DNA from: Myxococcales bacterium
GTDB taxonomy: Bacteria; Myxococcota_A; Polyangia; Nannocystales; Nannocystaceae
Direction: 5' to 3'
Assembly (NCBI GenBank): GCA_014240065.1
Contig: JAAZXR010000020.1
Coordinates: forward strand, 1-64,000
DNA: 64,000 nt
Shown here: piece after piece, positions 29,087 through 64,000 of the stretch
How positions within the stretch are numbered: position 1 is the first letter of the stretch
Layout: the number at the start of each line of letters is the position of its first letter
The notes under the pieces: model-generated
Told to the model about the DNA's origin: nothing
Database searches by the model: none
What the model saw: only the letters and a program-made list of their open reading frames with translations
Made by a program: the position numbers and the translations under genes

Positions 29087-29320
29087 CGCAGCGGCGCTTG
29101 AGATCGGCGGGGATTTTTCGCGGATTGCTTCGCAGTTGGCTTTGTGGAGGGATTGCTCTGGAAATGGCAGTTAGGGCCGGGCTACACCGGTGATCAAGGC
29201 AATGGACGTGCGCTGTGGTCACCGACCACGCCGTCCGCCGCCACACACACCACCGCCTCGGTCTCCCCGGAGACAAGCGACGTGACCCGCCAAGGGCGCA
29301 GGGCTGGAGACGACCTGACC

Positions 29321-30736
29321 ATGAATACGAACACCGACCCCAAAGCTCGAGTTTCCCTCAACGTCGCCGGCCAAGGCGAGCCAGAGCGTAAGCGCAAACC
29401 AACGGTCGCCGCGGATTCGCTCTCCCACCGCGATCTTCGCTCCGGAGATTTTTGGCGCAGCCTCCCCGCGTTCACAGACATCGATGAGCCGACCTTCCTC
29501 GACCATCGATGGCAGGCGAAACACTCGATCACCAAGGTCGACAAGCTGCTCGGCGTCCTCGAGGGGCTGGTGCACAAGCGCTTCTTTGACGATCTCCGCC
29601 AGGGGTTCTCGAGCGCGCCCATGGCCGTTCGAGTCTCGCCGTATATGCTCTCGTTGATCGACTGGGCCAACCCCTACGACGACCCGATCCGGCGACAGTT
29701 CCTCCCCGTGGGATCGGAGATCCTCCCGGATCACCCGAAGCTCGATCTCGATTCTCTGCACGAGCAAGAAGACGCGCCCGTCGCGGGCTTGACCCACCGC
29801 TATCCGGACAAGGCGCTGTTTTTGGCGTTGGACACCTGCCCCGTGTACTGCCGATTTTGTACGCGGAGCTACGCCGTAGGCACCAACACGGAGGAGGTGG
29901 AGAAGGTCAGCCTGAAGGCGAGCGTCGCGCGATGGGAGGAGGCGTTCTCCTACGTGGAGTCGCGTGATGAGCTTGAGGACGTGGTCATCAGCGGCGGCGA
30001 TTCGTACCAGCTCCGCGCGGATCATATCCGGCAGATAGGCAATCGCCTGTTGGACATCGATCACATCCGACGGATGCGCTTCGCGAGCAAGGGCCCGGCG
30101 GTGATGCCCCAAAAGCTGCTCACCGACGATGACTGGGTGGACGCCTTGACCGAGGTCGTGGATCGCGGGCGCCGCATGCACAAAGAGGTCGTGCTCCACA
30201 CACACTTCAACCACCCCAACGAGATCACAGAGATCACCGCGCGGGCCTTGAATCGTCTGTTCGAGCGCGGCATCGTGGTGCGAAATCAGTCTGTGCTGCA
30301 GCGCGGTGTGAACGATGATCCGGCCACGATGACCACCCTCGTCAAGCGCCTCAGCTGGCTGAACGCGCACCCGTATTACGTGTACCAGCACGACATGGTG
30401 AAGGGCGTCGAGACGCTGAGGACGACGGTACAGACCGCGCTCGATCTCGAGAAACAGATTCGCGGTGTGACCGCGGGGTTCAACACGCCCGTGTTCGTGG
30501 TGGACGCCCCGGGCGGCGGCGGCAAGCGTGACGCCCACTCCTACGAGTACTACAACCGCGAGACCGGGGTGAGCGTGTACAAGAGCCCCAACGTCAACGC
30601 GGACGCGCTGTATTGCTACTTCGACCCGATCTACTCGCTGTCCGAGCGTGGGCGGGAGCGGTGGGCGGACCCGGCGAACCACGATGCGATCGTCGCTGAG
30701 GCGGTCGCGGCGGCGCGCAGCGGCGAGCACCGTTGA
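29321..30736 (+). CDS. kamA: KamA-family radical SAM lysine 2,3-aminomutase
   Basis: Predicted to interconvert lysine and beta-lysine using a 4Fe-4S cluster, SAM and PLP. The 471 residues contain the cluster motif CPVYCRFC (Cys173, Cys177, Cys180), the PLP-binding PGGGGK (Lys402), and both substrate-binding Asp positions (QHDMVKG and VVDAPGG, Asp395), which glutamate aminomutases change. The ATG at 29321 (MNTNTDPKARV) follows GGAGACG; the frame is open to 29144. It stands alone without an adjacent beta-lysine acetyltransferase. EpmB-type use on EF-P cannot be excluded, although the length favours KamA. Confidence 0.88.
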   Translation: MNTNTDPKARVSLNVAGQGEPERKRKPTVAADSLSHRDLRSGDFWRSLPAFTDIDEPTFLDHRWQAKHSITKVDKLLGVLEGLVHKRFFDDLRQGFSSAPMAVRVSPYMLSLIDWANPYDDPIRRQFLPVGSEILPDHPKLDLDSLHEQEDAPVAGLTHRYPDKALFLALDTCPVYCRFCTRSYAVGTNTEEVEKVSLKASVARWEEAFSYVESRDELEDVVISGGDSYQLRADHIRQIGNRLLDIDHIRRMRFASKGPAVMPQKLLTDDDWVDALTEVVDRGRRMHKEVVLHTHFNHPNEITEITARALNRLFERGIVVRNQSVLQRGVNDDPATMTTLVKRLSWLNAHPYYVYQHDMVKGVETLRTTVQTALDLEKQIRGVTAGFNTPVFVVDAPGGGGKRDAHSYEYYNRETGVSVYKSPNVNADALYCYFDPIYSLSERGRERWADPANHDAIVAEAVAAARSGEHR

Positions 30737-54856: not shown

Positions 54857-55726
54857 CTACAACGGGCCGAGCTTCTGGTATTCGCTCGGCGTCATCCCCA
54901 TATGTCGCGCGAACGCCCGCGAGAACGAGGGGTGGTCAGCAAAGCCCACCGACAAGGCGACATCGAGGATCGGCTGGTCGGTGGTCCGGAGCTTACGGGC
55001 GGCGTGACACAGGCGCAGCGTTCGCAGGTACGCGCCGGGTGTGATCCCCACGGTCTGGGAGAACTGGCGCAAGAAATGATACTTGCTCAGGCCGGCGATC
55101 TCGGCGAGCGCGTCGAGGCTGAGCGAGGTCGGGTTGACGTGATCTTCGAGGCCCCGAATATGATCCATGGCCTTGGCGATCTTGCGGTGGCTCACGCGGT
55201 TGGTCGAGCGGAGCATCGGTTGATGCAGGTTGGAGAACCGCTCGAGGGTGCTGCTCACCACGCCTTCGAGGATCGAAGCCAGTTCTGTCGAGGGGCTGGC
55301 TTCCTGCGGAGCCTCAAGCAGGCGGCGCGCGTGGTCGAGGAGCCTGCGAATCTCCTCGATGAGCGGCCACTGGTCCTCGGCGCGGATCACCGTAAACTCA
55401 GGAGCGTCGCAGGGAGCTTCAAGCGTCCGCGCGAGCCGTCGAACGTAGCCCGAATCGACGTACAGGCTGAGATACTCGAGGTCGTCGTTGCCTTCGGCGT
55501 TGCCGGTGTGGACCTGTTGCGGGTTGATGAGCACGAGATCCCCCGCTTCAAAGCGCTGCAGCTTGCCGGAGATCTCAAAGGTCTCGGACCCTTGGAGCTG
55601 CGCGCAAATCAGGTACTCGTCGTGAAAATGGGGCGTGAGCGGCATCTCGCTGTTGCGGCCCCACGCGTGGTACAGGGTGAACCCTGGCCCCCCGAAGAAC
55701 GAGGCTTTGAGGTCAAAGCGCGACAC
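54857..55726 (-). CDS. AraC-family transcriptional regulator
   Basis: From GTG 55726 the 289 residues contain an N-terminal cupin sensor (about residues 10-150, MPLTPHFHDEYLICAQLQG and FEAGDLVLINPQQVHTG) and two C-terminal helix-turn-helix motifs (LDALAEIAGLSKYHFLRQFSQ and ILDVALSVGFADHPSFSRAF). A more upstream ATG at 55870 is possible. It is divergent from the aminotransferase fusion gene by 177 bases, so it is the obvious candidate regulator of that operon. The ligand is unknown. Confidence 0.92.
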   Translation of the reverse strand: MSRFDLKASFFGGPGFTLYHAWGRNSEMPLTPHFHDEYLICAQLQGSETFEISGKLQRFEAGDLVLINPQQVHTGNAEGNDDLEYLSLYVDSGYVRRLARTLEAPCDAPEFTVIRAEDQWPLIEEIRRLLDHARRLLEAPQEASPSTELASILEGVVSSTLERFSNLHQPMLRSTNRVSHRKIAKAMDHIRGLEDHVNPTSLSLDALAEIAGLSKYHFLRQFSQTVGITPGAYLRTLRLCHAARKLRTTDQPILDVALSVGFADHPSFSRAFARHMGMTPSEYQKLGPL

Positions 55727-55903
55727 CCCGCAAGGGTATCGCGGGCCGCGTGCGGGATCGACCTCGATGGCGGCTCGCGCGCGCCCGCGCCGGTCGCTGA
55801 CATCAAGTCGCGCGGTGCGTGAGGATCGGCGCCGCAGCGGGTTGGGTCGATTGAGGCAATCTCCGCGCATGAACGGGGGCCGCGACCCAGTAGACTGCGC
55901 CGC

Positions 55904-58894
55904 ATGAGCGACGTGACTTCGAATCGGCCCCCCGGGGATCTCGCCACGCTAGAGGCGACCCAGCGCGAGGAGCTCCCCGCGCCCGGTGCGCCGCAGCGGG
56001 TGCACACGCGGGGTGTCCGTGTGCCCGAGGGCGGGGCGCTGCCGCAATCGGCGCGCTGGCTCGCGCGTCTGTACGACGGCGGCGTCGTCGCGCGCGAGAA
56101 AAAACCCCAGGTCATCGACACACGCCGGAGCCTCGGGCCGCATCTCGTGTCGGTGGACGACGATCCCATGGTGCTGCTCGACGCCTGCTCCCAGATCGCC
56201 ACGGTGACCCACGGGGCGCGCCACCCCAAGATGGTGCGGGACCTCTACGATGGTCGCTTCGGCGCGGCGCTGTGGTCCAACCCGGACACCACAGTGGGAG
56301 CGCCGAACGCCGTGCTCGCCGACTACGCGGCCGCGCTGCTGGAGCGCGCGCCCAAGGGCTTGTCTCACGTGTGCTTCACCGCGGCCGGCGGTGCGGAGGC
56401 CAACGAGAAAGCGTTTCGCGTCGCGCGGCTGCGCACCGAGGCGACCGGCAAGAAGCGCCGCGTCCTCGCGTTTGAGAGCGGCTTCCACGGGCGCACACAT
56501 ATCTCCTTGATGGCCACATGGAACAAGGTCAAGCGTGGACCGTTCGAGCTTGAGGGATTTGAGTCGGTGTTTTGTCCCACCGACCTCGACGCGCTGGCGA
56601 CCCTGCTCGAGTCTCAGGGTGCTGAGATCTACGCGGCGATTTTGGAACCGATGATGGCGGAGGGGGGCGACGTTCACCTCACGCGCGAGTTCGTGTTGGG
56701 GGTCCGCGAGCTGACGCGCGCCCACGGCATCCCGCTCATCGCGGACGAGGTGCAGACAGGATTCGGGACCGGCGGGTCGTTCTTTTGGTGGAATCGGCTG
56801 GGCCTCGGTGACGACCCGGCGCACGCTCCCGATATGCTCACCTCGGCGAAGAAAGCGGGACTGGGCGTCGTGCTCTCGCGCTGGGCCGACCCCGAGCCAA
56901 CGCCTGTGTGTGTGGCGTCCGCGTTGCGCGGGCTGATTCAGCTGGAGACGGCGGGGGAGCAAGACCACCTCGCGGAGGCGATCACCCCGAGGCTGGAGAA
57001 ACTCCAGGCCGCGCACCCCGATTTGGTCTCGGGCGCGCGCGCGGCGGGCACCACCTTCGCGTTTGATCTCCCCGACGGCGACCTCCAAAGAGCCTTCATC
57101 GCGCAGCGGTTTCAGCGGGGCTTCATGACCTATCAAGCGGGGCCACGGACCATTCGATTCCGGCTCAACGCCAGCTTCGACGACGTCGCCCTCGACGATC
57201 TGTTCGCGCGAATCGACACGGCGCTCCGGCTCCTCTCAAGCCCAGACGCCACCACGTGGAAGGTCGAGGGCCGCGCGATGCCAGCGGTGCCTGAGGGCAT
57301 CGAGATCCGCGAGGTGGTGCCCTCGGACTGGGAGAAAATTATGGCCATCGAACACGAGGTCTACGAGCCTGCGCGCGTGGATGACGAGCAAGAGCTCCGC
57401 ACCCACACGGACCTCGGCGTCGGACTCGTCGCCACCGACGGCGTGACCGGTGACGTCCTCGGGTTTTGTTTCGCGAGCCCGGTCGAGCACAACCTGCACA
57501 AGGACGGTCCCAAGCATGATGACCGCGTGGGGCACAAGGACACGCTGTACAGCATCGACGTGACGGTGTCGTCGCGGGCGAGGGCGCGCGGCGTGGGACT
57601 CGCGCTCAAGGGCGCGCAGCTGGAGTGGGCGCGGCAGCACGGGTACAGCTACGTCACCGGTCGCAACCGCGTGGGTGCCACCACCGCGATGGCCGCGCTC
57701 AACAACTCGCTCGGGGCGTTCTTGTTCAAGCGCCTCGAACATCAATATGAAGGTGAGGCGCAGGCCGACTACTATCGCATCCCGCTGCTGGGCCCCGAGG
57801 CGCCGGTCGTCGCTCCGGATCTGTTAAACCTGGCGGAGGGGCTCCAGTCCCCCTTCGGCCCCACGCCGAGCTTTATGGCCACGCGAGAGCTTGTGGGGCC
57901 CACGTGTACGCGGCTCAACCTCTCGAATTGGACGACGCCGGACATCGTCCACTACGTCGAGCACCTCACGCGGATCATGCCGCGCGGTACGGGGCACCTC
58001 TACTTCACGAGCAGTCGCGACGAGACCGTGGACAAGGGCTTGCGCTGCCTCCGGGTGAATCGTCCCGACGCCCGGATCGCGGTCGGGGTGGAGGGTGGAT
58101 TCGTCGGCAACATCACGGCCGCGGCGCGATCCATCTCCGACCCGCGTGGCTTCGACTCAAACTTCCCGCTCTTCGACTGGCCCACGATCCCGCACCCGCG
58201 CGGGGTGGGGGGGCACCAAGCGACGGTGCAGGCGCTGGAGGCCTTGGTGGCGGAGCACGGCGCCGAGGCCTTGTACGGGCTCGTCGTCGAGGTCGTCGGC
58301 GAGCGCTCCGGGGTCGCCCTTGAAGGAGCGGGGGCGGTGGCCTTGGCCGAGGCCTGCGCGCGCCTCGAGGTCCCCTTGGTCTTGGTGGAGACGGCCACGG
58401 GGATGTACCGCTCGGGTGCAGGGGCGTGGGGGGTCGACGGGCTCCCTCCCGAGGTGGTGCCCGACATGGTGCTCTGGAGCGCCGGCGGTCAGCTCGGGCA
58501 CGTGTTTGTGAGCGACAGGTATTGGGTGGACAAGCCGCTCACTTTAATCTCCACGTGGGACGGCGACGAGCTGTGCGTGATCCGAACGCACGAGGCGCTG
58601 CGCGCGGCGTGGCGCCTCGACCTCTCGCCTGCCATCACCGCGCTCGACACCTTGGTCCAGGAGGTGGCGATGCGGCTCGGCGGGTGCGCCGGCGGTCGCG
58701 GCTTGTACCGAACCATCGCGCTACCCGACGCGCTGGCGGAGGTCTTTGGTGAGGCGCTGGCCAAGGAGGGGATCACCGCCAAGCGCGGGCTCCCTGCCGT
58801 GTGGACGCTGTGTCCGCCCCTCGACATCACCGCCGACGAGATCGACACCCAGGTTCGCCCTGCGCTCATGCGGGCGGCCGTGTCTTTGCTGTGA
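55904..58894 (+). CDS. Aminotransferase III - GNAT acetyltransferase - pseudo-aminotransferase fusion
   Basis: A 996-residue three-domain protein. Domain 1 (about 60-445) is a class III PLP aminotransferase: CFTAAGGAEANEKAFRVAR, FESGFHGRTH, the pyridine-N Asp281 in IADEVQTGFGTGG and Lys316/317 in MLTSAKKAGLG, like lysine epsilon-aminotransferases. Domain 2 (about 465-625) is GNAT-like, with YSIDVTVSSRARARGVGLAL as acetyl-CoA motif. Domain 3 (about 640-990) is again aminotransferase-like, but Asp is replaced (VETATGMYRSG) and the Lys site reads WSAGGQLGHVF, so it cannot bind PLP normally. First gene of a four-gene unit; likely transaminates and acetylates a diamine or amino acid. Confidence 0.85.
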   Translation: MSDVTSNRPPGDLATLEATQREELPAPGAPQRVHTRGVRVPEGGALPQSARWLARLYDGGVVAREKKPQVIDTRRSLGPHLVSVDDDPMVLLDACSQIATVTHGARHPKMVRDLYDGRFGAALWSNPDTTVGAPNAVLADYAAALLERAPKGLSHVCFTAAGGAEANEKAFRVARLRTEATGKKRRVLAFESGFHGRTHISLMATWNKVKRGPFELEGFESVFCPTDLDALATLLESQGAEIYAAILEPMMAEGGDVHLTREFVLGVRELTRAHGIPLIADEVQTGFGTGGSFFWWNRLGLGDDPAHAPDMLTSAKKAGLGVVLSRWADPEPTPVCVASALRGLIQLETAGEQDHLAEAITPRLEKLQAAHPDLVSGARAAGTTFAFDLPDGDLQRAFIAQRFQRGFMTYQAGPRTIRFRLNASFDDVALDDLFARIDTALRLLSSPDATTWKVEGRAMPAVPEGIEIREVVPSDWEKIMAIEHEVYEPARVDDEQELRTHTDLGVGLVATDGVTGDVLGFCFASPVEHNLHKDGPKHDDRVGHKDTLYSIDVTVSSRARARGVGLALKGAQLEWARQHGYSYVTGRNRVGATTAMAALNNSLGAFLFKRLEHQYEGEAQADYYRIPLLGPEAPVVAPDLLNLAEGLQSPFGPTPSFMATRELVGPTCTRLNLSNWTTPDIVHYVEHLTRIMPRGTGHLYFTSSRDETVDKGLRCLRVNRPDARIAVGVEGGFVGNITAAARSISDPRGFDSNFPLFDWPTIPHPRGVGGHQATVQALEALVAEHGAEALYGLVVEVVGERSGVALEGAGAVALAEACARLEVPLVLVETATGMYRSGAGAWGVDGLPPEVVPDMVLWSAGGQLGHVFVSDRYWVDKPLTLISTWDGDELCVIRTHEALRAAWRLDLSPAITALDTLVQEVAMRLGGCAGGRGLYRTIALPDALAEVFGEALAKEGITAKRGLPAVWTLCPPLDITADEIDTQVRPALMRAAVSLL

Positions 58895-58905
58895 GGGGAC
58901 CCCAA

Positions 58906-59967
58906 GTGCCCGAATTTCAGGTGATCGATCTCGGGGGTGCGACGCCGCGGGCGCGGGGCGAGGCGCTCGGTGAGGTGCAGGCCGCGATGCTGCGGGCTGC
59001 GGCCGCGAGCCTCGAGGGGCTCGCCGCCGCGTGTGGCGCGGCTGTCCGCGCTGAGCAGGCCGCGTGCTGCCGAGAGTTTCTGGAGGGCTTGGGAGGTTCG
59101 CGCCCCGACTTGCACGAAGAACTCGCGGGGCTCGCGGCAGCGTCCGGGGTCGCGCTCGCGACGGTGGCGCAGCTTAATTTGCTCGGTGACAGCCCGCTCG
59201 GGCGCGCCGCGGCGGACGACGCGATGCTCGGCACCTCCACGGTGATTCACGCGAGCAGCGATGGCGGGGTCGTGATGGCGGGCGCCGTGCTCGGCGGGGT
59301 GCTCGGGTGGGGGCTCACGATGACAACCCACGAAGAGGGGGGGCGCCGAGTCGCGCTGCTGCGCGGCCCTGGCGGGCTCGGTTGGGCGGGGATTAACGCC
59401 GGCGGGGTCGCGGTGATGGCCGCCCATCCACGTTGGTCCGCCGTCGATGGTCGCGGCGAGGCGTGGCCGGTGGTCTTGCGGGCGTCGCTCGCCTGCGAGA
59501 GCGCGCTGCGAGCCCGCGAGACGCTGCGCGGGAGCGCGAGGCGAGGTGGCCGCTATTGGCTGGTGTCGGACGGCGCTGAGAGCTTCGGGTTGGAGAGTTC
59601 CCCCGAGCGAATGGCGGTCACCCGGCGGGGCGCGAAGGCGGCGCACGTCCACACGGATCACTTCTTCGACGTGGGGTTCCGCAGCAAGGAGCGCGCGCCC
59701 GTGAGCCCGCGGTCGTTTCGGCGCATGGAGCTCGCGTCGTCGATCTACGTGCAGCGGCGCCCCGAGCAGCCCGAGGCCCTGTTTGAATTCCTGACCGAGC
59801 TCGACCACACCCACGGGGCCACGGGAGACGCGGGCCCCGAAGACTCCGATCTCGAACGACTTGGCCCTTCGGTGCAATTCGTCGCACACTGTGAGGAGCG
59901 GGCGCTGTCCGCGTCTGCAATCATCGGTGGCGCGCGCGAGGTCCATCGCATGGACGTTTCCCCATGA
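58906..59967 (+). CDS. C45/acyl-CoA:6-APA acyltransferase-like protein lacking the usual Cys
   Basis: The 353 residues follow the AAT/C45 Ntn-hydrolase pattern: DLHEELAGLAAASGVALATVAQLN, GWAGINAGGVAVMAAHP, PVVLRASLACESALRARETL and YWLVSDGAESFGLESSPE ahead of HTDHFFD. The self-processing nucleophile normally sits in a Gly/Cys-Thr-Ser block; here it reads MLGTSTV, without Cys. It may be inactive, use another residue or have changed function. GTG 58906 is 11 bases after the fusion gene's stop, and its own stop overlaps the next gene by 4 bases. Confidence 0.7.
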   Translation: MPEFQVIDLGGATPRARGEALGEVQAAMLRAAAASLEGLAAACGAAVRAEQAACCREFLEGLGGSRPDLHEELAGLAAASGVALATVAQLNLLGDSPLGRAAADDAMLGTSTVIHASSDGGVVMAGAVLGGVLGWGLTMTTHEEGGRRVALLRGPGGLGWAGINAGGVAVMAAHPRWSAVDGRGEAWPVVLRASLACESALRARETLRGSARRGGRYWLVSDGAESFGLESSPERMAVTRRGAKAAHVHTDHFFDVGFRSKERAPVSPRSFRRMELASSIYVQRRPEQPEALFEFLTELDHTHGATGDAGPEDSDLERLGPSVQFVAHCEERALSASAIIGGAREVHRMDVSP

Positions 59968-61226
59968 ACAGCTCATCCCTACGAGACCGGCAAGCCCAGG
60001 GGCTCTTTTTCACCTGGAGCGCGCAAGGATCCACGCGCGGCATGGAGGTCGTGGACGCGAAGGGCGCCCAATTTCAACTCGCCGACGGCCGCTGGGTTTG
60101 GGACCTTGAGAGTCAGGTCTACAACGTGAACGCCGGTCATCAGCACCCTCACATCAAAGCGCGGATGATCGAGCAGATTAACACGCTGCCCGCCTGCGCC
60201 CCCAACGCCGTGCTGGAGATCCGCGCGACGCTTGGAGAGCTGTTGTCGAAGAAGACCGGGCTCACCAAGTCCTTCCTCACCTGCGGCGGGAGCGAGGCGG
60301 TGGAGAACGCCATCAAGATCGCCCGGTTGGTCACAGGTCGCAGCAAGGTCCTCGCGCGGCGTCACAGCTACCACGGCGCGAGCTTGGCCGTCCTCGGCGT
60401 CTCCGGAGATCCTCGCCGGGCGCCCTTCGAGCGCGACCTCCAAGAGTCCTATCTCATCGACGACCCGTTCCCTCATCCGCCGACAGCCGCGGGCGCGCCG
60501 TCGGCGTGGCTCGCGAGCTTCGACGCGCTGCTCGAGCGCGTGGGCGCAGACTCGGTGGCCGCCGTCCTCCTCGAAGGCTTCACCGGCACCAACGGCATGC
60601 AAGAACCCCCCGCCGATTTTTGGCCCGGTGTTCGAGCGCGCTGCGACGCGCACGGCATCATGCTCATCGACGATGAGATTTTCTCGGGGTTCGGTCGCAC
60701 CGGGAGATGGTTCGCGGCCGAGCACTGGGGCGTCCGCCCCGACATGATGACCGTGGGCAAGGGCCTGACCTCCGGGTACGCGCCGCTCGCTGGCGTCGTG
60801 GTCAACGAGCCCATCGCGTCGCATTTCGAGGATCACAAGCTCTGGTGCGGCCTCACCCACTACGCGCACCCTGTGAGCTGCGCCGCCGCGGTGGGCAGCA
60901 TCGAGGCCATCGAGGCCGACGGGCTGGTTCCATTGGCGGCGCAGGTGGGCGCCGCGCTGCGGTCGGGGCTCGAAGAGATGGCCGCCCGCTATCCCGGGGT
61001 CGTGCGCGTGCTCGGTCGCGGGATGATGCTCGGTGTGGTCCTCGATCGGCCCGCCGCCGCGCTCGTTGAGCAGGGGTGGGCGCGGGATCTGTACATCCCC
61101 AGCCGGGAGGACACCGTCTTCATCTGCCCGCCGCTGTGCCTCGGGCGCGAGGGCGCGGGCGAGATCCTCAGCCGCGTCGACGCGGCCATGACGGCCGCGG
61201 GGCTCGACGTCGCCGCCGCGCAGTGA
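59964..61226 (+). CDS. Class III PLP-dependent aminotransferase
   Basis: A 420-residue enzyme, probably an omega-amino-acid or diamine transaminase. Visible: TCGGSEAVENAIKIARLVTG, HSYHGASLAVLGVSGDPRR, the Asp-binding block LIDDEIFSGFGRTG, and the Schiff-base lysine in MMTVGKGLTSGYAPLAGVVV, all intact. WCGLTHYAHPVSCAAA matches beta-alanine:pyruvate and taurine-type relatives. ATG overlaps the upstream stop by 4 bases. The substrate cannot be read directly. Confidence 0.92.
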   Translation: MNSSSLRDRQAQGLFFTWSAQGSTRGMEVVDAKGAQFQLADGRWVWDLESQVYNVNAGHQHPHIKARMIEQINTLPACAPNAVLEIRATLGELLSKKTGLTKSFLTCGGSEAVENAIKIARLVTGRSKVLARRHSYHGASLAVLGVSGDPRRAPFERDLQESYLIDDPFPHPPTAAGAPSAWLASFDALLERVGADSVAAVLLEGFTGTNGMQEPPADFWPGVRARCDAHGIMLIDDEIFSGFGRTGRWFAAEHWGVRPDMMTVGKGLTSGYAPLAGVVVNEPIASHFEDHKLWCGLTHYAHPVSCAAAVGSIEAIEADGLVPLAAQVGAALRSGLEEMAARYPGVVRVLGRGMMLGVVLDRPAAALVEQGWARDLYIPSREDTVFICPPLCLGREGAGEILSRVDAAMTAAGLDVAAAQ

Positions 61227-61266
61227 CGGCGCTTGATTCGCGGGAGGCGCCGGGCGAAGATGCGGC

Positions 61267-62025
61267 ATGTTCGTCGTCGGCCGAGGTCGGATCGGGGGGG
61301 CGCTGGAGCAGCGCTCGCCCACGCCCTGCACCGTGCTGCTCCGGGGCGGCGACTGGGGCGAGGTCGAGGCCGCGTCCGATCCCATCGTCGTCACCACCCG
61401 CAACGATGATCTCGATGGCGTGGTCGCTCGTATCCCCGCCTCGCGGCGGCCCGATCTCGTGCTGATTCAAAACGGCATGCTGCGCCCGTGGCTCGCAGAT
61501 CGCGGGCTGTCGGAGGTCACGCGGGGGCTCCTCTTCTTCGCGGTGCCGTCGCTGGGAGCGACACCGGAGGTGGGCGGCCCAAGCCCGTTCGTGGGTCCGC
61601 GGGCGCCGGCTGTGGTGCGATGGCTGGAGTCGATGCGGCTCGACGCGCGCGCGGTGAGCGAGCGGGAGTTTCGTGAGGTCGAGCTGGAGAAACTCGTGTG
61701 GAACAGCGCCTTCGGGTTGTTGTGCGAGGCCTGCGATGCCCCCGTCGGAGAGGTGGTCGACGCACACGGTGACGTGTTCGCGCGCCTCGCCACGGAGCTT
61801 ATCGAGCTGGGCGCGGCCTCCTTGGAGGTCGAGGTGGACCGCGCCACCATGGTCGATTCCCTCGCAGCCTATTCGCGCTCCATCCCAACCTACCGCGGGG
61901 CCGTGAAGGAGTTCGCGTGGCGCAACGGGTGGTTTGTCGGGCTCGCGCGGGGGCGGGGGACATGGCGAGGCGGCGAGCACCACCGCTTGCTGGCCGCGGT
62001 GGGGAAGCTCCCCATCGGGCGCTAG
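61267..62025 (+). CDS. Ketopantoate-reductase-like (PanE/ApbA fold) protein
   Basis: The 252 residues start MFVVGRGRIGGALEQ, a GxGxxG Rossmann site, and LVLIQNGMLRP matches the LQNG block of ketopantoate reductases. The C-terminal helical domain contains VELEKLVWNSAFGLLCEACDAPVGEV, in the place of the family's catalytic Lys and Asn. It is shorter than PanE (about 300). Probably an NAD(P)H-dependent reductase of the operon's product rather than a pantothenate enzyme. It lies 40 bases after the aminotransferase. Confidence 0.72.
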   Translation: MFVVGRGRIGGALEQRSPTPCTVLLRGGDWGEVEAASDPIVVTTRNDDLDGVVARIPASRRPDLVLIQNGMLRPWLADRGLSEVTRGLLFFAVPSLGATPEVGGPSPFVGPRAPAVVRWLESMRLDARAVSEREFREVELEKLVWNSAFGLLCEACDAPVGEVVDAHGDVFARLATELIELGAASLEVEVDRATMVDSLAAYSRSIPTYRGAVKEFAWRNGWFVGLARGRGTWRGGEHHRLLAAVGKLPIGR

Positions 62026-62121: not shown

Positions 62122-63003
62122 CTACATCGGGGGCACGGGGGTCTGCGCGCAGCGGATCCCGACGCTGTTGCTGTTGCTGTCTGGGTAGAGGCGCTCGCGC
62201 TTGTTGACGCGCAGCTGCTCGCCAGTGTTGCTCCCGAGGGAGCCGCCACGGATGACGCGAAGCTCGCCCTCCGCAGGACCGACGGGGTTCGTGGTCTCCG
62301 CGGCGTCGTAGCCATCGGCGTACCAGTCGGCGACCCACTCGCGCACGTGACCGGCCATGTTTCGCACGCCGTACGGGGATTCACCCGCGACGATATTAAT
62401 CGTGACCGGTTGCGTCCCAGCGCCACACCCGACCCCGGCGTCGGTGCGCCAGATGACCTTCATGCACATCTGGGTGGGAGCCTCGTCTCCCCACGGGTAC
62501 AAGCGTGAGCCGTCGGCGCCCGCCGCGTTCTCCCACTCGGCCTCCGTGAGCAGCCGCTTCCCACGGAACGCGCAGTAGGCGTCCGCTTGGTCGTGCATGA
62601 TGCAGTTGGCGGGGTGGCTCCCGCGATCCGGGTCGTCGTAGGTGCAGTCGGTGCCGGTGGGGGCGGAGCAGTCTCCCGCTGTGACGCACTCTCGATATTC
62701 GTCCGCCGAAGTCTCAAACGTGTCGATCCAGTAGGGATCCAACGTCACCTCTCGGAGCGGGAGCGTCTCGGTCGGGTAGAGGTCGGAGCCCATGGTGAAG
62801 GTGGTCCCCTCCACGCACTTCATGTTGTCGGGGAGCGCCGCGCACACGTCGAAGTCGAAGCCTCCGTCGTCACCGGTGGTGGAGTCCGCCGTGGAGGAAT
62901 CGTCCGCGTCGGATCCTCCGCAGCCGGCGAGGGACAGCATGAGGGTCGCCGCGAGGGCGGGAAGTAAGGAGTGGGGTAAGCCTTGAGTTCGCACGGCACT
63001 CAT
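62122..63003 (-). CDS. FGE-sulfatase (SUMF1) domain lipoprotein
   Basis: The 293 residues from ATG 63003 have a signal peptide with lipobox LAGC, a Ser/Thr/Asp/Gly-rich linker, and the formylglycine-generating-enzyme-like fold: TFTMGSDLYPTETLPLREV, RGKRLLTEAEWENAAG, YPWGDEAP, GVRNMAGHVREWVADWY and RVIRGGSLGSNTGEQLRV. Extra Cys pairs are present. Many such lipoproteins do not make formylglycine; the role is unknown. The adjacent terminator defines its 3' end. Confidence 0.88.
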   Translation of the reverse strand: MSAVRTQGLPHSLLPALAATLMLSLAGCGGSDADDSSTADSTTGDDGGFDFDVCAALPDNMKCVEGTTFTMGSDLYPTETLPLREVTLDPYWIDTFETSADEYRECVTAGDCSAPTGTDCTYDDPDRGSHPANCIMHDQADAYCAFRGKRLLTEAEWENAAGADGSRLYPWGDEAPTQMCMKVIWRTDAGVGCGAGTQPVTINIVAGESPYGVRNMAGHVREWVADWYADGYDAAETTNPVGPAEGELRVIRGGSLGSNTGEQLRVNKRERLYPDSNSNSVGIRCAQTPVPPM

Positions 63004-63182
63004 GTACCAGCGGCGTTTGTGGAGGGCAAGCGGTCGGCCCAAGTCCCGCAATTTCGTGGGATTATGGTGCCGCGCTCGTCGGGCTCGCCGCGCACGCGAG
63101 GGAGATAATACGGCAATATCGCCTCATGCGGGGGTTGACCGACCGGATACCCCGACGGCACCCTACCCAGGTGCCCCCCTCC

Positions 63183-63899
63183 GTGAGACTGCTGGAGAGC
63201 CCGAAGGTCCGCGAGAGCGCCGCGCTCGCCCTGTCGGACTTGGACGACGGCGCGAGCATCGCGGTCGGAGGCTTCGGCCTTTGTGGCAACCCCGAGGCGT
63301 GCATCGCCGCCGTCGCCGCCTCAGGCGCCGACGGGCTCACGATCATGTCGAACAATTGTGGCAACCAGGGGCGCGGGCTCGCCATCTTGCTCAAGCAGCG
63401 CCAGGTCGCGCGGGTGATCTGCAGCTTCGTGGGCGGCAACCCTGACCTCGAGGCGCAGATGTTGGCGGGCGAAGTGGACGTGCAGCTCAACCCCCAAGGG
63501 ACCTTGGCCGAGCGGTTGCGGGCGGGGGGCGCGGGGATCGAGGCGTTCTTCACGCCGACGGGCGCGGGGACCAAGGTCGCAGAAGGCAAAGAGGTGCGCG
63601 ACTTTGAGGGGCGGCCGTGCGTGTTGGAGACCGCCCTCAAGCCGGACTTCGCCATCGTCCGCGCGGCCAAGGGCGACGTGTTTGGTAACCTCCAATTTTA
63701 TCGGACCTCGCAGAATTTCAACCCGCTCGCCGCCATGGCCGGGCGCGTGACGATCGCCGAGGTCGACGAGCTCGTCCCCGCCGGGGCGCTCGATCCTGAC
63801 CACGTGCACCTGCCGGGGATCTTCGTCCAGCGGGTGGTGCACGTCCCTGAACACGCGAATTTTATCGAATATCGCACGACGAGCGCCCGTCCCTCGTAG
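63183..63899 (+). CDS. scoA: 3-oxoacid CoA-transferase subunit A
   Basis: Alpha subunit of succinyl-CoA:3-ketoacid CoA-transferase type enzymes. From GTG 63183, 238 residues contain ASIAVGGFGLCGNPEACI, VDVQLNPQGTLAERLRAGG and FEGRPCVLETALKPDFAIVRA, then GDVFGNLQFYRTSQNFNP. An ATG at 63126 would add 19 residues. The beta subunit, which carries the catalytic Glu, normally follows directly but is not seen in the remaining bases. Confidence 0.9.
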   Translation: MRLLESPKVRESAALALSDLDDGASIAVGGFGLCGNPEACIAAVAASGADGLTIMSNNCGNQGRGLAILLKQRQVARVICSFVGGNPDLEAQMLAGEVDVQLNPQGTLAERLRAGGAGIEAFFTPTGAGTKVAEGKEVRDFEGRPCVLETALKPDFAIVRAAKGDVFGNLQFYRTSQNFNPLAAMAGRVTIAEVDELVPAGALDPDHVHLPGIFVQRVVHVPEHANFIEYRTTSARPS

Positions 63900-63940
63900 T
63901 GGGCATCGCGCGGCGTCGCCGCGGTGCTACTGTGAAAGTC

Positions 63941-64000
63941 ATGGGGTACGTCAATTTGCATGCTCGTGTGGTCACGTCCGCCCTCGCGTTCGCGGTCGGC
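63941..64000 (+). CDS. Start of an unidentified exported protein (cut by window edge)
   Basis: From ATG 63941 (or GTG 63932 in the same frame) the translation reads MGYVNLHARVVTSALAFAVG up to the edge, which looks like the start of a signal peptide. Too short to identify. It is not the N-terminus expected of CoA-transferase subunit B. Confidence 0.3.
   Translation, partial: MGYVNLHARVVTSALAFAVG

Follow-up and report, generated by a model that had tools for sequence, protein, structure and literature searches.

A conserved myxobacterial operon built around an aminotransferase-GNAT-pseudo-aminotransferase fusion, with a plausible role in lysine catabolism

The window analysed here is a stretch of 64,000 nucleotides from a 4.7-Mb draft assembly of a Myxococcales bacterium (family Nannocystaceae). 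At positions 54857-62025 a first-pass annotation had described an AraC regulator gene and, divergent from it, four + strand genes. We found the AraC ORF on the - strand and all four + strand ORFs to be open, in the divergent arrangement and with precisely the spacing described: the stop codon of the fusion gene (58892-58894) is followed by 11 bases and then the GTG start of the C45 gene at 58906, the C45 and AT2 genes overlap by 4 bases (ATGA, 59964-59967) and a 40-base gap separates AT2 from the PanE-like gene, which starts at 61267. Although the AraC ORF reaches 55870, the gene probably starts at the GTG at 55726, because most orthologs align only from about residue 49 onward; this start would leave a divergent intergenic region of ~177 bp. 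The genes of the interval are thus present as described, but the interval stops short of a gene for CoA-transferase subunit A at 63126-63899. The features discussed below, including a KamA homologue outside the operon, are as follows.

29144-30736, + strand: KamA-1, lysine 2,3-aminomutase (LAM)-like radical SAM enzyme, outside the operon; LAM residues conserved relative to 2A5H
54857-55726, - strand: AraC-family regulator (Pfam HTH_18, 2.4e-26; AraC_binding, 2.4e-18)
55727-55903, unstranded: divergent intergenic region, by its position the presumed control region of both transcripts
55904-58894, + strand: 996-aa fusion, class III aminotransferase-GNAT-pseudo-aminotransferase; full-length AlphaFold model confident throughout (pLDDT 91.6, pTM 0.92)
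56009-57259, + strand: domain 1 of the fusion (AT_N), class III aminotransferase (PF00202, 3.5e-54), with PLP lysine Lys316 (codon 56849-56851) and Asp281 (56744-56746)
57269-57823, + strand: domain 2, GNAT acyltransferase (PF00583, 25 bits; cut-off 20.7)
57821-58891, + strand: domain 3, pseudo-aminotransferase (PF00202, 30.8 bits; cut-off 30.5)
58906-59967, + strand: C45-like (AAT/carcinine-hydrolase-type) Ntn-hydrolase-like protein (NCBIfam C45_proenzyme, 81.4 bits; cut-off 85)
59964-61226, + strand: second class III aminotransferase, AT2, 420 aa (PF00202, 2.4e-72)
61267-62025, + strand: PanE/ApbA-like protein, 252 aa (ApbA_C, 20.6 bits, under the cut-off)
63126-63899, + strand: 3-oxoacid CoA-transferase subunit A (TIGR02429, 253.2 bits; cut-off 128.5)

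The first gene had been read as a fusion of an aminotransferase with a GNAT acetyltransferase. Both domains were confirmed, but the protein is not a two-domain one, as residues ~640-996 form a third, aminotransferase-like domain. For AT_N, the best solved relative by profile was the L-lysine epsilon-aminotransferase of M. tuberculosis (164 bits), followed by GABA aminotransferase (157 bits), whilst by structure succinylornithine (AstC), acetylornithine and lysine aminotransferases were approximately tied (Z 25.6-24.5, rmsd 2.2-2.4, 333-386 aligned). The GNAT domain was kept in all of the fusions that we aligned. Three GNAT domains were scanned and none had an NCBIfam match at E-values up to 0.1, only the generic GNAT Pfam being hit; as such, the acyltransferase could be assigned neither to the AstA succinyltransferases nor to the AblB/YodP-type acetyltransferases. 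Domain 3 shows distant homology to the class III enzymes, matching lysine aminotransferase by profile at 5e-19 and domain 1 with 99.4% probability; domain 1 filled the structural search list, and the fold of domain 3 was assigned from the profile evidence. No relative of the GNAT-pseudo-aminotransferase part was found in the plasmids searched.

The two aminotransferase domains have lost different parts of the active site. Across 28 aligned sequences, AT_N invariantly retains Lys316, Asp281 (within DEVQ), the FHGR motif and the Glu switch at position 253, and in place of the Ser-Thr-Trp loop that would serve a partner subunit it has a short AS..RG-type stretch. In domain 3, GGQ (residues 861-863) or GAQ stands in place of the PLP lysine in each of the 17 sequences of the first alignment, the full set of 28 invariably having Gly861 and Gln863, and the PLP aspartate is replaced by Glu829 throughout; STWDGD (residues 883-888, 58550-58567) is, however, invariant in the aligned sequences. 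This dead domain is not decaying, since its dN/dS relative to the sister genome is 0.075 (0.060 for domain 1 and 0.086 for GNAT) and the STWDGD motif is unchanged; it is a catalytically dead domain under purifying selection. In lysine aminotransferase, Lys300 and Asp271 belong to the subunit's own site, whilst Ser329 and Thr330 reach the site of the other subunit, where Thr330 binds the PLP phosphate (PMC9780415). In our alignment the former pair maps to Lys316 and Asp281 of AT_N, and the latter to Ser883 and Thr884 of domain 3. Each half keeps what the other misses, and these reciprocal losses point to one composite active site formed between domains 1 and 3 of a single chain. The first aminotransferase would accordingly be an asymmetric pseudo-dimer, in which domain 1 holds PLP through Lys316 and Asp281 and the PLP phosphate is bound by the Ser-Thr-Trp loop (883-885) of the dead domain.

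With Rv3290c (2CIN), an L-lysine epsilon-aminotransferase, and with GABA aminotransferase, domain 1 shares the fold and the own-subunit catalytic residues, and domain 3 the partner Ser-Thr-Trp loop; those enzymes are symmetric homodimers, whereas here two complementary halves lie in one chain with GNAT between them. A PLP-bearing half is paired with a dead half in the glycine decarboxylase P-protein and in LCB1/LCB2 of serine palmitoyltransferase, the same pairing as in the fusion, although these belong to other fold-type I subfamilies. To our knowledge, no paired active and inactive enzyme has been known among class III aminotransferases.

A contig scan with a single protein recovered just one sister contig, 90% identical and labelled uncultured Nannocystaceae. 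With the GNAT and C-terminal part of the fusion as query, strong matches were found among 189 genomes of the phylum in 17 besides that of the window. Across families of the Myxococcota the same order recurs: an AstD-like aldehyde dehydrogenase (ALDH; where present), aminotransferase-GNAT-aminotransferase-like domain, C45, AT2, CoA-transferase A and CoA-transferase B. Fusion, C45 and AT2 follow one another in at least 10 genera, a clustering far beyond chance, and not the scattering of homologues that the first-pass annotation had named as evidence against its proposal. The AraC-divergent metabolic cluster that it had pictured, with two class III aminotransferases, a GNAT and an Ntn-hydrolase-like protein, is thus conserved. 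UDG, DFP, peptidase M19, GCV_T, RF3 and a kinase were considered as further members and rejected, as they are not conserved beside the operons. Two divergent versions still lie beside CoA-transferase genes: in L051, GNAT occurs in an ORF with no detected N-terminal aminotransferase, and in L052 the frame spans 999 aa with flanking domains too diverged for BLAST. A literature search of partial coverage returned no description of the operon, of the fusion or of a beta-lysine/3-oxoadipate route. The conserved operon with its unusual enzyme architecture is real, and apparently undescribed.

Most relatives carry the dehydrogenase, either fused or immediately upstream. It is a separate upstream gene in four loci (L039, L041, L043 and L044), and in five others (L037, L038, L046, L047 and L048) it is fused in frame, giving four-domain proteins of 1527-1720 aa. 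Among solved structures it comes closest to three AstD succinylglutamate-semialdehyde dehydrogenases (307, 304 and 284 bits, with the next family at 222), and AstD models lead in NCBIfam, yet score under the equivalog cut-off. A two-domain ALDH-GNAT protein lacking an aminotransferase was found in one genome (G023), where it would couple those two activities. At L053:8736-10799 (- strand), an ALDH-GNAT protein without aminotransferase is encoded immediately downstream of an ABC transporter of the glycine-betaine type (OpuAC); the genome concerned has no KamA-1. Within the Nannocystaceae, the fusion was present in 19 of 29 genomes, surrounded in nearly all sufficiently long loci by C45, AT2 and a divergent AraC gene. 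No AstD-like dehydrogenase, linked or elsewhere, was found in this family, the window genome included (best score 224 bits, versus ~270-430 for operon-type copies, the query itself excluded); of the ALDHs that the window genome still has, the closest scored best as a succinate-semialdehyde dehydrogenase (328 bits, below the cut-off of 521).

C45 proteins are amide hydrolases/acyltransferases whose nucleophile Cys is bared by autoproteolysis. Orthologs of the operon member keep GGC(S/T), QTWDMH and TNH, whereas the window protein has Ser at the position of the Cys nucleophile and has lost the latter two motifs; one relative's ortholog with the Cys scores 197.5 bits against the model whose cut-off the window protein fails to reach. 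The same change, with other catalytic motifs lost, is seen in L092, L093 and L097, and apparently affects two Nannocystaceae lineages, with a second genus altered in a similar way; C45 was not detected in L104. For AT2, the closest NCBIfam model was PRK06062 and the closest solved structures were taurine:2-oxoglutarate aminotransferase and omega-transaminase.

In relatives, CoA-transferase orthologs come straight after AT2, and 3-oxoacid CoA-transferase genes usually close the set; within the Nannocystaceae they are linked in two genera only, that of the window and one other. The window's subunit A gene falls in the pcaI/scoA family, over the cut-off, its closest solved relative being succinyl-CoA:3-ketoacid CoA-transferase, and shares 82% identity with the L034 gene that comes immediately after AT2. 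Judged by these matches, it is the final gene of the ancestral set, since displaced, and is separated from AT2, in the window only, by the PanE-like gene together with an FGE-sulfatase-type gene in inverted orientation. An orphan subunit B gene with no A gene beside it lies on another contig (G000:C227:3530-4156), and is a possible partner of the orphan A gene. The inserted FGE-sulfatase-domain gene (62122-63051, - strand) is lipoprotein-like, and L048 and L050 have similar FGE genes on the downstream side of the operon. Directly after CoA-transferase A, a small 131-aa protein with repeated VENFPDLKV-like motifs occupies 63899-64000 and continues as L054:11900-12295.

A pathway that transaminates, acylates and reduces a diamine, a lysine derivative or an osmolyte had been suggested for these genes. 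The reductive step finds no support in relatives, where the conserved redox partner is the AstD-like ALDH; the supposed PanE-like reductase falls below both family cut-offs (Pfam 20.6 bits, cut-off 22.7; NCBIfam 24 bits, cut-off 141) and accompanied the operon at none of the other loci examined. As relatives carry that dehydrogenase and end in CoA-transferase, the set looks catabolic and oxidative and unlike a reductive or osmolyte route. A lysine-derived diamino compound is a plausible substrate. One could argue instead for biosynthesis of a modified amino acid, osmolyte or secondary metabolite, with C45 acting as an acyltransferase and the PanE-like protein as a reductase, as the Nannocystaceae operons have no linked dehydrogenase and usually no CoA-transferase, leaving acylation and two transaminations, and a PanE-like gene does lie in the window operon. 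This we consider quite improbable, given that the PanE-like gene is confined to a single genome, that the ancestral set included two enzymes typical of catabolism (an AstD-like dehydrogenase and a 3-oxoacid CoA-transferase), and that the proteins scanned included no NRPS/PKS neighbour. Ectoine-type and NRPS-type explanations were dropped, as no matching partner gene was seen.

A link to KamA had been offered as speculation, and it has since gained support. When aligned to Clostridium lysine 2,3-aminomutase (2A5H), KamA-1 was found to conserve the cluster cysteines and the positions of Arg134, Asp293, Asp330 and Lys337, which we take to be the LAM active-site residues. It scores 270 bits against an equivalog cut-off of 525 for lysine 2,3-aminomutase and is unlinked, 25 kb from the operon (KamA biochemistry is treated in PMC6522883). 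A second KamA homologue (G000:C180:42017-43075) scores above it as a canonical lysine 2,3-aminomutase, at 434 bits; this type is near-universal in the phylum, whereas the window type is patchy. Counting orthologs at E < 1e-100, where there is a clear gap, we found KamA-1 in 16 of 17 operon genomes versus 45 of 162 others (Fisher p 9.6e-8, for genomes that are not independent and with shared ancestry ignored); by genus the p value was 9.8e-7 and by family 3e-4, again ignoring shared ancestry. Within the Nannocystaceae, KamA-1 accompanies 18 of 19 operons, the exception being a genome 54% complete, and occurs in one of 10 operon-less genomes (genus-level p = 0.01). Families with both states (f1 and f3) show the same pairing, and genome size does not explain it, because operon-less Nannocystaceae have large genomes. 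Urease, included as a negative control, was too rare (6/179) for calibration. KamA-1 and the operon were never adjacent, either around the operon loci or around 20 KamA-1 loci, and KamA-1 is common without the operon (nearly all of f17 and most of f15); for these reasons it looks necessary, but not dedicated.

This co-occurrence supports beta-lysine as the substrate. It might also reflect shared lifestyle or clade history, with some other amine or diamino acid as the true substrate, be it alpha-lysine, ornithine, a polyamine or an N-acylated compound. The relatives of AT_N, which include acetylornithine, succinylornithine, lysine and putrescine aminotransferases, would allow this, as would the frequent presence of KamA-1 without the operon and the dependence among genomes, which leaves the genus-level test within the Nannocystaceae at the modest value given above. 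We nevertheless see this as possible but on the unlikely side, as the pairing holds in several mixed-state families irrespective of genome size, and the breakdown of alpha-lysine or ornithine offers no obvious step for a 3-oxoacid CoA-transferase.

The reading that we favour, at somewhat short of even confidence, is that the operon encodes a module, conserved among myxobacteria, for the breakdown of a diamino acid, KamA-made beta-lysine being the likeliest; the module would follow the logic of the arginine succinyltransferase (AST) pathway and have the fusion as its pseudo-dimeric enzyme. GNAT would acylate the 3-amino group of beta-lysine, and since the acyl group would stop the later aldehyde from cyclising, the route explains the need for acylation. 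The fusion aminotransferase would then remove the 6-amino group and the AstD-like ALDH oxidise the semialdehyde to N-acyl-3-aminoadipate, which C45 would deacylate. AT2 would convert 3-aminoadipate to 3-oxoadipate, 3-oxoacid CoA-transferase would yield 3-oxoadipyl-CoA and a thiolase would split this to succinyl-CoA and acetyl-CoA. Gene order matches the proposed order of steps, save for the internal order within the fusion. A pcaF-like thiolase is uninformative as support for the 3-oxoadipate ending, being also present in operon-less Nannocystaceae, and operon genomes G124 and G167 yielded none at the E-value applied. It is doubtful that the route is complete in the window organism, and in Nannocystaceae it seems partial or rewired, because they have no AstD-like ALDH, the window C45 lacks the Cys nucleophile and C45 went undetected in L104; the full route is best stated for the wider Myxococcota.

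The near-equality of GABA aminotransferase and lysine aminotransferase as relatives of AT_N counts against this reading, and fits a Barker/Bacillus-type degradation of beta-lysine built from the same list of parts. There, GNAT would form N6-acetyl-beta-lysine, AT2 would give 3-keto-6-acetamidohexanoate, CoA-transferase and thiolase would lead to 4-acetamidobutyryl-CoA, and C45, as deacetylase/thioesterase, to 4-aminobutyrate, with AT_N and ALDH serving as GABA transaminase and succinate-semialdehyde dehydrogenase. KamA-1 co-occurrence is accommodated equally well, as is the resemblance of the closest ALDH in the window genome to succinate-semialdehyde dehydrogenases. Against it, the operon ALDH is AstD-like and not of the latter type, the GNAT domains scanned matched no AblB-type model, the steps would be out of gene order and it would be odd for the first and last of them to be joined in one protein, and an ALDH-GNAT protein without aminotransferase exists; we judge it unlikely, though a serious competitor to the favoured reading.

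The favoured catabolic module would share with the AST pathway (AstC/AstD) the logic of acylating, transaminating the distal amino group, oxidizing with an AstD-like dehydrogenase and deacylating. It differs in having GNAT and C45 in place of AstA and AstE (no AstE desuccinylase was recognized, its place being held by the C45-type protein), in lacking AstB, in adding a second transamination and a CoA-transferase, in the fusion of the first steps into one chain and, for the window genome, in the missing AstD-like part. Beta-lysine degradation in Pseudomonas and the Bacillus kamA-yod operon employ KamA, a GNAT, class III aminotransferases, a CoA-transferase and a deacylase. Counterparts occur here, that of KamA being the lysine 2,3-aminomutase-like KamA-1. 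Here, however, KamA is unlinked, GNAT has no NCBIfam match, C45 replaces an M20-type deacetylase, and there are an AstD-like dehydrogenase, fusions and a pseudo-aminotransferase domain.

The fusion architecture is well supported by the sequence comparisons, and the predicted lysine-catabolic function is plausible. The broader proposal, that Myxococcota possess a new lysine route running through beta-lysine, N-acyl-beta-lysine, 3-aminoadipate and 3-oxoadipyl-CoA by way of a fused ALDH-AT-GNAT-pseudo-AT with one composite PLP site per chain, is a tentative one. Its pseudo-dimer component is directly testable by single point mutations and, if true, would provide a clear case of an inactive duplicate that persists because its twin needs it for a complete active site. 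If the catabolic assignment is also true, a gap in lysine use by predatory myxobacteria would be filled, and KamA-made beta-lysine would gain a metabolic fate.
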